Shown in pieces: positions 36,542 through 41,318 of a DNA stretch of 64,000 nt. Both the position numbers and the translations under genes were made by a program. This DNA is from Candidatus Halobonum tyrrellensis G22 (lineage in GTDB: Archaea > Halobacteriota > Halobacteria > Halobacteriales > Haloferacaceae). The DNA is taken from NCBI RefSeq assembly GCF_000495475.1, contig NZ_ASGZ01000013.1, positions 1-64,000 of the forward strand, in the 5' to 3' direction. Within the stretch, counting starts at the first letter, position 1; every line of letters starts with the position of its first letter. The notes beneath the pieces were generated by a model. That model saw only the letters and a program-made list of their open reading frames with translations. It was not told the DNA's origin and did not search any database.

Positions 36542-38320
36542 ATGTTCAGGCAGTTCCGGTCGAACGTCGAGGCGGCGCTCGAAGGGGCGCTCGCCGACCT
36601 CGACTACCCGACCGACGACCTCGGCATCGAGGAGCCGCCGGGCGACGTGGACGCGGCACTCGCCTCCAGCGTCGCGTTCCGGCTGGCGAGCGAGGCGGGC
36701 GCGCCGCCGCCGCAGGTCGCCGGGGAGGTGGCCGACGCCGTCGACCCTGCGGGCGTGGAGTACCTCGCGCGCGTCGAGACCAGCGGGCCGTACCTCAACT
36801 TCTTCACCGACGACGCGTACGCGGCCGACACGCTGGAGGCGGCCCGAGACGAGCGCTACGGTCGGCTCCCCGACCGCGGCGAGTCGGCGGTGGTCGAACA
36901 CACCTCCGCGAACCCCACCGGACCCGTGCACGTCGGCCGCGCGCGCAACCCCATCGTCGGCGACGCGACCGCGAACGCGCTGGAGTACGCGGGCTACGAC
37001 GTCGACCGCCACTACTACGTCAACGACGCCGGTCGGCAGATCGCGGTGTTCACGTGGGCGTACGAGACGTTCGACGAGGCGGACCTGCCCGAACCGGAGC
37101 GCGACAAGCCCGACTACGACCTCGTGCGCTACTACCGCGCGGGCAGCGAGTTGCTCGAAGAGGGCGACGAACGCGAGGTCGAGGCGGCCGAAGCGGAGGT
37201 CCAAGCGATCCTCCAGGGGTTAGAGGAGGGCGACGAGGCGACGTACGACCGGGTCGAGGAGGTGGTCGACACGGTGCTCGCGGGAATGCGCGAGACGCTC
37301 GAACGGCTCCCCGCCGAGTTCGACGAGTTCGTCAAGGAGACGCGGTTCATGCGCGACGGGAGCACCGACCGGGTGGCCGAGCGCCTCCAAGCGATGGACG
37401 AGGCGACGCTCGAAGAGGGCGCGTGGCAGCTCGACCTCTCGGAGTTCGGCATCGAGAAGAAGCTCGTCTTCCTCCGGTCGGACGGCACGTCGCTGTACAC
37501 GACCCGCGACCTGGCTCACCACGAGTGGAAGTTCGAGCGGTACGACCGCGCGGTGACGGTGATCGGCGAGGACCACAAGCTGGCGTTCGACCAGCTCAGG
37601 CACGCGCTCGGCCTGCTGGGCAACGACACCGAACAGCTGGAGCAACTGTTCTACTCGTGGGTGAACCTCCCCGGCGGCGAGGGGATGAGCACCCGCGCGG
37701 GCACCGGCGTCGACCTCGACGACCTGCTCGACGAGGCGGTCGCCCGCGCCCGCGAGGAGGTGGAGACGCGGATGGACGACCGCATCCGCGACGACGACCT
37801 CGGGGAGGCGGACGTCGACCGGATCGCCCGCCAGGTCGGCATCGGCGCGGTCCGGTACGACATCGTGAGCAAACAGCCCACCAAGGCGATCACGTTCGAG
37901 TGGGAGCGCGCGCTCGACTTCGAGGCGCAGTCCGCCCCGTACGTCCAGTACGTCCACGCGCGCTGTTGCGGCATCCTCGCGGAGGCGGAGAAGGGTGACG
38001 CCGACGAGTCGCAGGCGGCTGCCGGCGCCGAGGTCGACCCCGACGCGCTGTCGACGCCCGAGGAGCGCGCGCTGGTCGCCGAGATAGCGCGCTTCCCCGC
38101 GGTCGTCGAGGAGGCCGCCGAGGACCTGGAACCCCACCGGGTGGCGACGTACACCCGGTCGTTCGCGGAGACGTTCAACGCGTTCTACCGGGAGTGTCCG
38201 GTGCTGTCGGCCGACGACCCCGACACCCGGACCGCCCGGCTGGCGCTGGTGGCCGCGGCGCGTCACACCGTCGCGAACGCCCTCGACGTGCTCGGCGTCG
38301 CCGCTCCGGAGTCGATGTAG
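36542..38320 (+). CDS. argS: arginyl-tRNA synthetase
   Basis: A 592-residue class I aminoacyl-tRNA synthetase. The N-terminal additional domain recognises the tRNA D-loop; then comes the HIGH-type signature as [18 protein letters not shown], and a KMSK-like loop represented by [19 protein letters not shown], as in archaeal Arg[17 protein letters not shown] and [13 protein letters not shown] are further family landmarks. The C-terminal DALR anticodon-binding domain ends with [25 protein letters not shown] box lies 22-30 bases before ATG, suggesting a leaderless mRNA. Confidence 0.96.
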
Positions 38321-38336: not shown

Positions 38337-38486
38337 TCAGGCCGGGAACGCCGGGAAGATGGCCTCGGCGGGTGCGATCAGCGACCCGCCCGAGGAGACG
38401 ACCGCGAGCGCCCCGAGCCCCAGCGCGAGAACGACGAAGACGAGGATCCACCACAGCGGGACGGAACTGCTCTCTGCTTGGCTCAT
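38337..38486 (-). CDS. small single-span membrane protein (49 residues)
   Basis: A short gene encoding MSQAESSSVPLWWILVFV and onward: one membrane span (residues about 11-30), then a short outer segment GGSLIAPAEAIFPAFPA. Its composition is clean, and it starts with ATG and ends with TGA 17 bases from the convergent argS stop. It follows the MinD-family gene on the same strand, with 60 bases between them, and may be cotranscribed. Function unknown; the size fits small bitopic proteins that accompany larger complexes. Confidence 0.65.
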   Translation of the reverse strand: MSQAESSSVPLWWILVFVVLALGLGALAVVSSGGSLIAPAEAIFPAFPA

Positions 38487-38546
38487 ACCCGGTGTGCGAC
38501 CGCGCGCGTAGAAGAAAGTCCCGATACCCGCCCGGGGAGCCGCCGG

Positions 38547-39812
38547 TCAGCGGAACAGCCGACCCAGCAGGCCGCCGCCGGCCGGGGCGTCGCCCGCCTC
38601 CGTGTCGTCGTCGACGCCCGCGACCGGTCCCTCGACCACCTCGCCGAGCACCGTCCGCGGGGCGTCGACCGCGTCCGCGTCGCCGTCCGCCGGGTCGGCG
38701 TCGACGACCGCGTCGGCGTCGTCGAGCGGCGTTATCGCCGGTGGGGCGCCGTCGTCGAGCGACCGGGGCGCCGGCGCGTCGTCGGCGCTCCCGGTATCAC
38801 CGTCGACAGCGTCGCCGGCGGCCGTCTCCGCCCCGCTCCCGCCGTCGGCCGTGGCGTCCAGCCGGACTATCGCGGGCGTCACGTCGCCGTCGACCGAACG
38901 GGGGGCGGGTGTCGGAGCGGCGTCCGCTCGCCTCCCCAGCCCCGCGTCCGCGTCGGCGTCTACCGGGTCGAGGTCGGTGGCGGCCGGGTCGGCGGCGGTG
39001 TCGTCGGCGTCGTCCGCGTCCGTGGCAGTGTCGGCGGACGGTTCGGCGGCAGTGTCGTCGAACGGTTCGGCGGCGGTGTCGGCGGACGACTCGGCGTCGA
39101 TGTCGACGAGCGCGGACGCGACCGCGCGGTACGCCGCCGCGGCGTCGCTGTCGGGTGCGAACGCCGAGAGGGGTTCGCCCGCCGCCGCGGCCGCTTCGAC
39201 GACCGGGTCCTCGGGGACCCGCCCGAGCACCGGCACGTCGAGCGGCGAGGGGTCGACGCCGCCGTCGGCGCCGTCCGGCACGCCGTCGGCACCCACGCGC
39301 GTCAGCGTCAGCCCGACGACGTGCCCGCCGAGTCGCTCCGCGAGTTCGAGCGTCCGACTCGTGTCCGCGAGCGCGTTCCGCGTCGGCGTCGACGCCAGCA
39401 CCACCCCGTCGGCGACCGACAGCGGCAGGACGCTCTCGTGGGTGACCCCCGCGCCCGTGTCGACGACGACGTACTCCGCGCCGGTGACGGCCCCGACCGC
39501 CTCCGTGATCCCCGAGGGGTCGGCCGCGCGGAACGCGTCGAGCGTCCGCCCGCCGGGCATGACCGCCAGCCCGTCGGGTCCCTCGTACGTCGCCTCGACC
39601 GGGTCCGCCTCGCCCGCGAGCACGTCGTGGAGCGTCGCACCCCCCTCGGGCACCTCGACCCCGAGCGTCGCCGCGAGGTTCGGCGTGCCGAGGTCCCCGT
39701 CGACGACCACCGTCGTATGGCCGGCGGCCGCGAGCGCGGCCGCGAGGTTCGCGGCCGTCGTCGTCTTCCCGACGCCACCTTTCGCGCTCGCGACGGCGTA
39801 CATCGTCGGCAT
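38547..39812 (-). CDS. MinD/ParA-family ATPase with long C-terminal extension and membrane-targeting helix
   Basis: A 421-residue protein. Residues 1-237 are a MinD-type deviant Walker ATPase: KGGVGKTTTA (11-20), VVVDGDLGTPNLAATLG and VVVDTGAG. Residues about 238-410 are a disordered acidic linker with a duplicated segment (TPAPRSVDGDVTPAIVRLD at 301-319; APAPRSLDDGAPPAITPLD at 346-364). The last ten residues GGGLLGRLFR look like an amphipathic membrane-targeting helix as in bacterial MinD. Haloarchaea have several MinD paralogues; MinD4 of Haloferax has a C-terminal extension and helps place archaella and chemosensory arrays. This gene may be its equivalent, partly because it too lies near the ATP synthase genes, but that is inference. 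Confidence 0.88.
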   Translation of the reverse strand: MPTMYAVASAKGGVGKTTTAANLAAALAAAGHTTVVVDGDLGTPNLAATLGVEVPEGGATLHDVLAGEADPVEATYEGPDGLAVMPGGRTLDAFRAADPSGITEAVGAVTGAEYVVVDTGAGVTHESVLPLSVADGVVLASTPTRNALADTSRTLELAERLGGHVVGLTLTRVGADGVPDGADGGVDPSPLDVPVLGRVPEDPVVEAAAAAGEPLSAFAPDSDAAAAYRAVASALVDIDAESSADTAAEPFDDTAAEPSADTATDADDADDTAADPAATDLDPVDADADAGLGRRADAAPTPAPRSVDGDVTPAIVRLDATADGGSGAETAAGDAVDGDTGSADDAPAPRSLDDGAPPAITPLDDADAVVDADPADGDADAVDAPRTVLGEVVEGPVAGVDDDTEAGDAPAGGGLLGRLFR

Positions 39813-39836: not shown

Positions 39837-39845
39837 GTATAAACC
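39837..39845 (-). promoter_or_regulatory. TATA box of the MinD-family gene
   Basis: The minus strand reads GTTTATACC, 25-33 bases before ATG 39812, supporting that start over the ATG three codons inside. Confidence 0.6.
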
Positions 39846-40061: not shown

Positions 40062-41318
40062 ATGAGTAGCGACGCCGAAGAGGGAGCTCCGTCAGACGAC
40101 AGACGCCGATACGAGTTCCTGAAAGTCCTCGACGAACTCGACGAGTTCGAGGGGTCGGGAACCCAGCTCGTCACCATCTACATCCCCGAGGACAAGCAGG
40201 TCTCCGACGTGGTGGCACACGTCACCCAGGAGCACAGCGAGGCGTCGAACATCAAGTCGAAGCAGACCCGGACGAACGTCCAGGACGCGCTCACGTCCAT
40301 CAAGGACCGCCTGCGCTACTACGACACGTTCCCGCCGGACAACGGGATGGTCATCTTCTCGGGCGCCGTCGACTCCGGCGGCGGCCAGACGGAGATGGTC
40401 ACCCGGGTGTTGGAGTCGCCGCCGGACCCCGTCCAGTCGTTCCGCTACCACTGCGACTCGAACTTCCTGACCGGGCCGCTCGAGGACATGATGGCCGACA
40501 AGGGGCTGTTCGGTCTCATCGTCCTCGACCGGCGGGAGGCCAACGTCGGCTGGCTCAAGGGCAAGCGGGTCGAACCCGTCAAGTCGGCGTCGTCGCTCGT
40601 CCCCGGGAAACAGCGGAAGGGCGGCCAGTCCGCACAGCGGTTCGCCCGTCTCCGGCTGGAGGCCATCGACAACTTCTATCAGGAGGTCGCGGAGATGGCG
40701 AACGACCTGTTCGTCCCCAAGCGGCACGAACTCGACGGCATCCTCGTGGGCGGTCCCTCCCCCACCAAAGACGAGTTCCTCGACGGCGACTACCTCCACC
40801 ACGAGCTACAGGACAAGGTGCTCGGGAAGTTCGACGTGGCGTACACCGACGAGTCCGGGCTGTCGGACCTGGTCGACGCCGGCCAGGAGGTGCTCGCCGA
40901 CCAGGAGGTCGTCAAGGACAAACGCCAGATGGAGGAGTTCTTCGAGAACCTCAACACCGGCGGCGAGGCCACCTACGGGTTCGAACAGACCCGGCGGAAC
41001 CTCGTGATGGGGTCGGTCGACCGCCTGCTGCTCTCGGAGGACCTCCACCACGACGTGGTCGTCTACGAGTGTCCCAACGACCACGAGGAGTACGAAGTGG
41101 TCGAGCGCCGCCACGCCACCCCCGAGCACACCTGCAGCGAGTGCCGCGAGGAGGCCGAACCCGAAGAGCGCGAGGACGTGGTCGACCACCTGATGAACAT
41201 CGCCGACCAGCGCGGCACCGAGACCAAGTTCATCTCCACCGACTTCGAGAAGGGCGAACAGCTCATGGACGCGTTCGGCGGCATCGCCGGCATCCTCCGC
41301 TACTCAACGGGCGTCTAA
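40062..41318 (+). CDS. prf1: peptide chain release factor aRF1
   Basis: A 418-residue archaeal class-1 release factor that recognises all three stop codons and hydrolyses peptidyl-tRNA. The stop-codon-reading NIKS motif is at residues 63-66, and the catalytic GGQ at 187-189 within VPGKQRKGGQSAQRFARLR. The C-terminal domain has a zinc-finger-like pair (YECPNDHEEYE and HTCSECREE) and binds aRF3-like partners. The gene's own terminator codon TAA is followed by a tandem copy of its last 21 bases, giving a second TAA in frame. A TATA-like ACTTACACC lies 24-32 bases upstream. Confidence 0.97.
   Translation: MSSDAEEGAPSDDRRRYEFLKVLDELDEFEGSGTQLVTIYIPEDKQVSDVVAHVTQEHSEASNIKSKQTRTNVQDALTSIKDRLRYYDTFPPDNGMVIFSGAVDSGGGQTEMVTRVLESPPDPVQSFRYHCDSNFLTGPLEDMMADKGLFGLIVLDRREANVGWLKGKRVEPVKSASSLVPGKQRKGGQSAQRFARLRLEAIDNFYQEVAEMANDLFVPKRHELDGILVGGPSPTKDEFLDGDYLHHELQDKVLGKFDVAYTDESGLSDLVDAGQEVLADQEVVKDKRQMEEFFENLNTGGEATYGFEQTRRNLVMGSVDRLLLSEDLHHDVVVYECPNDHEEYEVVERRHATPEHTCSECREEAEPEEREDVVDHLMNIADQRGTETKFISTDFEKGEQLMDAFGGIAGILRYSTGV

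Follow-up and report, generated by a model that had tools for sequence, protein, structure and literature searches.

Among the closest described relatives of the MinD considered here are the MinD ATPases of Haloferax volcanii, which has four MinD paralogues (PMC11588486, PMC11621097). MinD4 (HVO_0322) oscillates and affects the placement of archaella and chemosensory arrays (PMC11588486, PMC11621097); its C-terminal tail is extended, and truncating that tail impairs motility (PMC11621097). MinD2 (HVO_0595) carries K16 and D117, the published codon for the latter being GAT, and is followed downstream by HVO_0596, the tagged product of which is diffuse (PMC11588486, PMC11621097) and the deletion of which gave no phenotype (PMC11588486). 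The membrane anchor of E. coli MinD is given as KGFLKRLFGG (PMC5471200).

We analysed a 64,000-nucleotide stretch of the genome of Candidatus Halobonum tyrrellensis G22 (contig NZ_ASGZ01000013.1 of assembly GCF_000495475.1; hereafter the window). It carries a minD coding sequence of 421 aa on the minus strand (38547..39812), identified by Pfam, NCBIfam and structure matches and by its place in a tree, with an acidic linker and a putative C-terminal anchor that suggest a MinD4-type protein. A TATA-like TTTATA lies 26-31 bases 5' of its start (39838..39843, minus strand). Sixty bases separate the minD stop from the start of a second minus-strand gene (38337..38486), which encodes a small one-helix membrane protein of 49 aa recognised as an open reading frame, by hydropathy and by the conservation of its family; the original prediction of a MinD reading frame with a tiny one 60 bases downstream therefore described two real genes. 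The pair is flanked by the convergent arginyl-tRNA synthetase gene argS (36542..38320, plus strand; TIGR00456, 469.7 bits against a cut-off of 261.65) and the divergent gene for peptide chain release factor aRF1, prf1 (40062..41318, plus strand; TIGR03676, 538.5 bits against a cut-off of 234.7), both conserved in place. This block, prf1-minD-small gene-argS, is seen in the window and in related genomes. For comparison we used 148 genomes of the window's family, 132 of which have a minD orthologue at E 1e-40 or better; the window's own genus (g1) is represented by one genome only. Two irregularities among the flanking genes were seen along the way. In G130 the argS match (L277 2064-4431) is split: query 6-481 and query 557-592 align separately, some 835 bases apart, which resembles an insertion or a strongly diverged stretch inside the gene. 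G017 has two prf1 copies (C8:9837-11066 and C1:87635-88864; 80% and 79% identity to the query).

The ATPase core of the window MinD spans residues 1-238 (39099..39812, minus strand), and solved MinD structures align over about residues 4-233. It has both the deviant Walker A motif (KGGxGKT), here AKGGVGKT with K16 (39762..39785, minus strand), and the Walker B aspartate, D118, the combination by which MinD/ParA ATPases are recognised. Pfam returned ParA (E 1.1e-18; 68.1 bits, cut-off 27.1) and CbiA (E 1.9e-17), and the archaeal MinD model TIGR01969 (minD_arch) matched at E 3.8e-53 with 180.2 bits, close to but below its curated cut-off of 201.75. The top solved-structure match was 1hyq, named MinD-1 (E 6.9e-35). 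Together, the Pfam, TIGR01969 and 1hyq matches bear out the earlier claim of a complete MinD core. Plasmid records searched with MinD and the small protein gave zero matches to either, and a contig scan with P0001, for which low-complexity patterns were chosen, found just five loci, distant and bacterial.

We then asked which H. volcanii MinD this protein most resembles. Like MinD4, the window MinD has an extended C-terminal tail, of 183 residues past residue 238. The orthologue at this locus (the locus MinD) was the longest MinD-like frame in all five of the compared genomes that have it, and likewise in 15 of 15 genomes of genus g28, at 611-741 aa against 226-520 aa for the other matches. 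Two g28 genomes (G084 and G123) also encode a tail-less paralogue of 257 aa that carries K16 and D117 and is overlapped by a soluble-looking ORF downstream. Their locus MinDs carry K16 and D117 as well, and the D117 codon is GAT in G084 and GAC in G123 for the paralogue, with the reverse for the locus MinD. Because locus MinD and paralogue share both residues, it is the tail, the neighbour and the tree, and not K16 and D117, that decide the type of MinD.

A tree was built by a quick method from 125 MinD cores and came with long-branch warnings. In it, 32 paralogues fell on one branch apart from the locus MinDs (support 92), and a MinD2-like clade of 18 was also separate from them (support 100). 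Second, shorter MinDs from one genome each of g17 and g5 (L171, L172) grouped among the locus MinDs, and five rows labelled as paralogues are second copies of locus MinDs. The window's row was joined by five distant paralogues, a placement that probably reflects rooting and long branches. Within the MinD2-like group, a conserved ORF begins at the last codon of the paralogue and overlaps it (L175, L174, L173, L177, L178), and this ORF is likely the counterpart of HVO_0596. The MinD2-like paralogue was also found in G005 and G108, both of which are without a tailed MinD and without the archaellum marker PF04659.

The possibility that the window protein is itself MinD2 was considered and judged unlikely on its tail, its downstream gene and its place in the tree. 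As in the HVO_0595-HVO_0596 pair, a MinD is here followed by a conserved neighbour gene; the MinD2-like paralogue, however, is about 257 aa long with neither tail nor tip, overlaps a soluble-looking neighbour and forms a separate clade. The small protein of the window does not belong with the HVO_0596 family, which is soluble-looking and stands beside the MinD2-type paralogue: it consists of one hydrophobic helix and sits next to the locus MinD instead. With MinD4 as described, the window protein shares a MinD core, an extended tail of the kind reported to matter for motility (PMC11621097) and a haloarchaeal host; the loss pattern fits a role in motility. Since tail, neighbour and tree set the locus MinD apart from the MinD2-like clade, a MinD4-type protein is the best reading, and the window MinD is most likely an orthologue of HVO_0322, a name we infer from features, elimination and the pattern of loss.

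The tail ends in GGGLLGRLFR (38550..38579, minus strand), a putative membrane-targeting sequence of MinD type that nearly matches the anchor of E. coli MinD, KGFLKRLFGG (PMC5471200). The deviant Walker A is likewise common to the window protein and E. coli MinD. This amphipathic G-h-h-x-R-h-h motif stands at the extreme C-terminus, where MinD membrane-targeting sequences are found. As a pattern (G, once S, then [FIL]-[FLI]-[GSRK]-[RW]-[LFI]-[LF] and up to four residues), the tip is present in 130 of the 132 family orthologues. The two exceptions are incomplete or disrupted: one (G086) contains unread letters beyond which the frame changes, and the other (G037) is cut at a contig end, so that the count becomes 130 of 130 complete tails. 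The helical moment of LLGRLFR is 0.96, a value reached by 5.8% of shuffles of the same letters. The original prediction of a membrane-targeting tip is thus upheld at the level of sequence, and the tip probably serves as the membrane anchor of the window MinD. In other families the strict pattern, which was made for the window's family, fits 1 of 28 locus MinDs; on visual inspection, another 22 close with a related hydrophobic cluster (for example GVLGRLGSLFK, GLFARLARLFG or GVFGLFN), and none was seen in the five locus MinDs of family f4.

Between core and tip lies the linker (residues 239-411; 38580..39098, minus strand), whose 173 residues, 28% of them D or E, agree with the acidic stretch of about 170 residues first described. 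The E. coli MinD linker is short, unlike this one. From one genus to another the linker sequence is little conserved, and the tail past residue 238 ranges from 19 to 497 residues across the family orthologues; the shortest tails, of 19-107 residues, are those of genus g24, in which tip and small gene are kept in 12 of 12. With the tip present in 130 of 130 complete tails of such differing length, the tip is the constant part and the linker the variable one. By analogy with bacterial MinD and with the work on MinD4, ATP-bound dimers would most likely pair two C-terminal amphipathic tips and in this way bind the membrane, and the long acidic linker, presumably disordered, would be a fast-evolving flexible tether between ATPase and anchor.

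The linker had drawn attention for a duplicated segment, which was suggested to dock a partner. Both copies are present: segment 1 (residues 301-319, TPAPRSVDGDVTPAIVRLD; 38856..38912, minus strand) and segment 2 (residues 346-364, APAPRSLDDGAPPAITPLD; 38721..38777, minus strand) have PAPRS at residues 302 and 347 and PAI..LD at 313 and 358, and over a 19-residue length taken over from the original segments they agree at 11 of 19 residues and 39 of 57 bases. When the linker was shuffled at constant composition, 111 of 2000 shuffles matched this identity, which makes the duplication weak, while just 9 of 500 matched the BLOSUM score, the one figure that speaks for lineage-specific functional docking motifs. 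PAPRS and PAI..LD were looked for in the other 131 family orthologues and found in none, so the repeat occurs in the window protein alone among 132. A general docking feature was rejected on that count, and because the other 131 orthologues are without the repeats the suggestion of partner docking is unsupported; even a docking function confined to this lineage appears very unlikely, and the repeat is of no demonstrated importance. APRTVLGE (residues 384-391; 38640..38663, minus strand), originally read with its next residue as a decayed third copy, APRTVLGEV, is better taken as the counterpart of ARRTVLGE, ARGTVLGR and ARTTVLE in close relatives (g5, g10, g17). Other short linker segments are better supported than the repeat: TVL[GED] occurs in 19 of 132 orthologue linkers against 1.3 expected from shuffles, and [AVI][IV]PF, missing from the window's protein, in 33 of 132 against 0.1 expected, counts that are inflated by kinship and concern patterns defined after the tails had been read. 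One or two such short conserved patches may bind partners.

As a MinD4-type protein, the window MinD would be polar and oscillating and would help to position archaella and chemosensory arrays. Within the family, 123 of the 132 genomes with minD have the archaellum marker PF04659, compared with 5 of the 16 that lack minD (Fisher p 4e-8); among the 133 genomes at least 90% complete, the counts are 118 of 125 with minD and 2 of 8 without (p 6e-6). The window's own genome carries the marker. Exceptions run both ways, with nine family genomes having minD without PF04659 and five having PF04659 without minD, and in other families G183, G193, G225, G227 and G165 keep minD without the marker. A paired test on an argS tree (FastTree, 115 rows), underpowered for all trait pairs tried, gave for minD and PF04659 an average of 2.1 concordant pairs against 0.2 opposed, which is not significant; with only five well-supported independent pairs, the association is not established beyond kinship. 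These losses also bear on whether the window MinD acts in cell division as E. coli MinD does, which a common protein family and a common type of membrane anchor might lead one to expect. The orthologous minD is, however, missing from well-assembled genomes (for example G113, one contig and 98% complete), and deletion of all four minD genes in H. volcanii left growth and division unaffected (PMC11588486), so that we hold a division role to be extremely improbable. The window MinD is most likely of a known kind, MinD4, with a well-conserved anchor.

We turned to the small protein, whose presumed transmembrane segment covers residues 11-32 (LWWILVFVVLALGLGALAVVSS; 38391..38456, minus strand) by hydropathy. 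The consensus of its family reads MAExxSVPFWWIVLFLLLALGxGAxAVxAVGGSLI, with W13, F17, L20, G23, G33 and G34 invariant among 32 chosen members, and over a 24-codon core the median dN/dS was 0.12-0.33 in six genus groups (median dS 0.14-0.64). Against Pfam and NCBIfam the family gave weak matches only, none over cut-off, and against solved structures no match. Among the weak ones, 16 of the 32 members matched FixP_N (PF14715, the N-terminus of cytochrome cbb3 CcoP; best E 0.0026). FixP_N has the pattern P-x-W-W-xxx-F ahead of a single helix, as does the small protein; the likeness is weak, the small protein has no cytochrome domain, and the resemblance is probably convergent. Literature searches on HVO_0321, HVO_0323 and HVO_0324 returned no papers, and the available text of the published work on H. 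volcanii MinDs makes no mention of the small gene.

A P0002 search with a threshold of E 2e-4 found the small gene in 96 of the 148 family genomes; twelve with weaker matches were left out, eleven of which sit in frames of at least 153 aa, while the 61-aa frame of the other (G040) might be a real copy. In 90 of the 96 it is the gene immediately following minD, at a median gap of 46 bases (range -4 to 169; at most 120 in 88 of the 90 loci), and about 1.5 kb downstream in G047. Among genera with minD, 18 have the small gene in every sampled member (counting G047) and 8 in none. With a widened profile and a threshold of E 0.001, 99 of 292 genomes across the class matched, three just weakly. Among 34 genomes of other families, chosen by their small-gene match and so unusable for rates, 26 have minD, the small gene and argS in order (prf1 inside the stretch in 24), six have small-gene loci without minD, and two have minD beyond argS. 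When looked for beside this MinD type elsewhere, as first proposed, the small gene was thus present with 91 of 132 family orthologues and in other haloarchaeal families. It represents an old, conserved and unnamed haloarchaeal family of predicted membrane proteins.

Upstream of the small gene we found a promoter-like element (ATCGGGACTTTCTTCTA; 38509..38525, minus strand), 23-39 bases 5' of the ATG. Its shared form (INDEPENDENCE: AA[AC]CGGGAAGTTCTTTTA) stands at about -40 to -24 from the ATG, and positions -39, -36, -33, -30, -27 and -26 are among those of highest agreement, both across the 90 loci and with one locus per genus in 18 genera. The element keeps a fixed distance to the ATG across gaps to minD of -4 to 169. 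It is present in three genomes without minD (G005, G108, G113) and not clearly so in two others (G003, G030). Presumably the element is a haloarchaeal promoter of a leaderless transcript, to which it fits. Because it keeps its place before the ATG whatever the gap to minD, the small gene is unlikely to be a strict operon partner. Column agreement of the element (CGGGAAGTTCTTTTA) is above that of the TATA region of minD, and in the window's family it is without the usual TTTATA; in other families, TTAAG or TCTAAA-like boxes take its place at several loci.

The original prediction put the small protein forward as a natural partner or membrane receptor of MinD. As a dedicated receptor or regulator, a MinE stand-in or polar landmark, it would bind the ATPase or the linker and set the site at which MinD docks. 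Its position, directly downstream in 90 of 96 family genomes and within 120 bases in 88, speaks for such a role, as do the same gene block in other families and genus g24, where none of 12 loci showed argS beside minD and all 12 still had the small gene there. By count the two genes are associated (the small gene is in 91 of the 132 genomes that have minD and in 5 of the 16 that lack it; p 0.005, uncorrected for kinship), which favours some link. A partner would also fill a place, the H. volcanii MinDs being reported to have no clearly identified MinE equivalents (PMC11621097). However, the small gene is kept without minD in 5 of 16 family genomes (G003, G005, G030, G108, G113) and in six elsewhere (G230, G292, G309, G337, G299, G275), where the best MinD-like matches are at E 2e-35 or weaker, the strongest lying in the paralogue branch, and where G275 has no MinD-like match at 1e-8. 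Of the 132 family genomes that have minD, 41 do not have the small gene, among them 29 of 29 in genus g14. No sampled member of g12, g14 or g16 has it, and minD there is without prf1 or argS within the stretch; in the six genomes compared there (G036, G011, G015, G038, G013 and G104), minD and prf1 are at least about 10 kb apart. HVO_0596, downstream of MinD2, gave no deletion phenotype (PMC11588486). The small gene's own element, its survival without minD and its absence from 41 of 132 minD genomes make an obligate partnership unlikely and weaken the partner proposal; an occasional receptor is possible, and a dedicated one we regard as rather unlikely. With losses in both directions, the neighbour is conserved but separable from minD, and a gene that outlives MinD is probably not simply its partner.

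Taken as a whole, the observations are probably best explained by a MinD4 orthologue tethered to the membrane by its tip through a flexible linker, beside a separate haloarchaeal membrane-protein gene that would have its own promoter and a main job not dependent on MinD. A more speculative and quite doubtful proposal is that MinD4-type proteins use the small tryptophan-rich helix as a landmark or switch at the membrane, and that it serves another client where MinD4 has been lost. If this were true, the small protein would be the first such partner at the membrane for any archaeal MinD known to us.

MinD4 helps to organise the archaeal cell pole, and the H. volcanii MinDs are reported to have no clearly identified MinE-like partners (PMC11621097). 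The present analysis places likely MinD4 orthologues in one conserved gene block and points to the tip as the constant part of their tail. The loss pattern cautions against taking the small neighbour as a partner of MinD, and with a conserved neighbour now named, the question of a MinD partner becomes directly testable.
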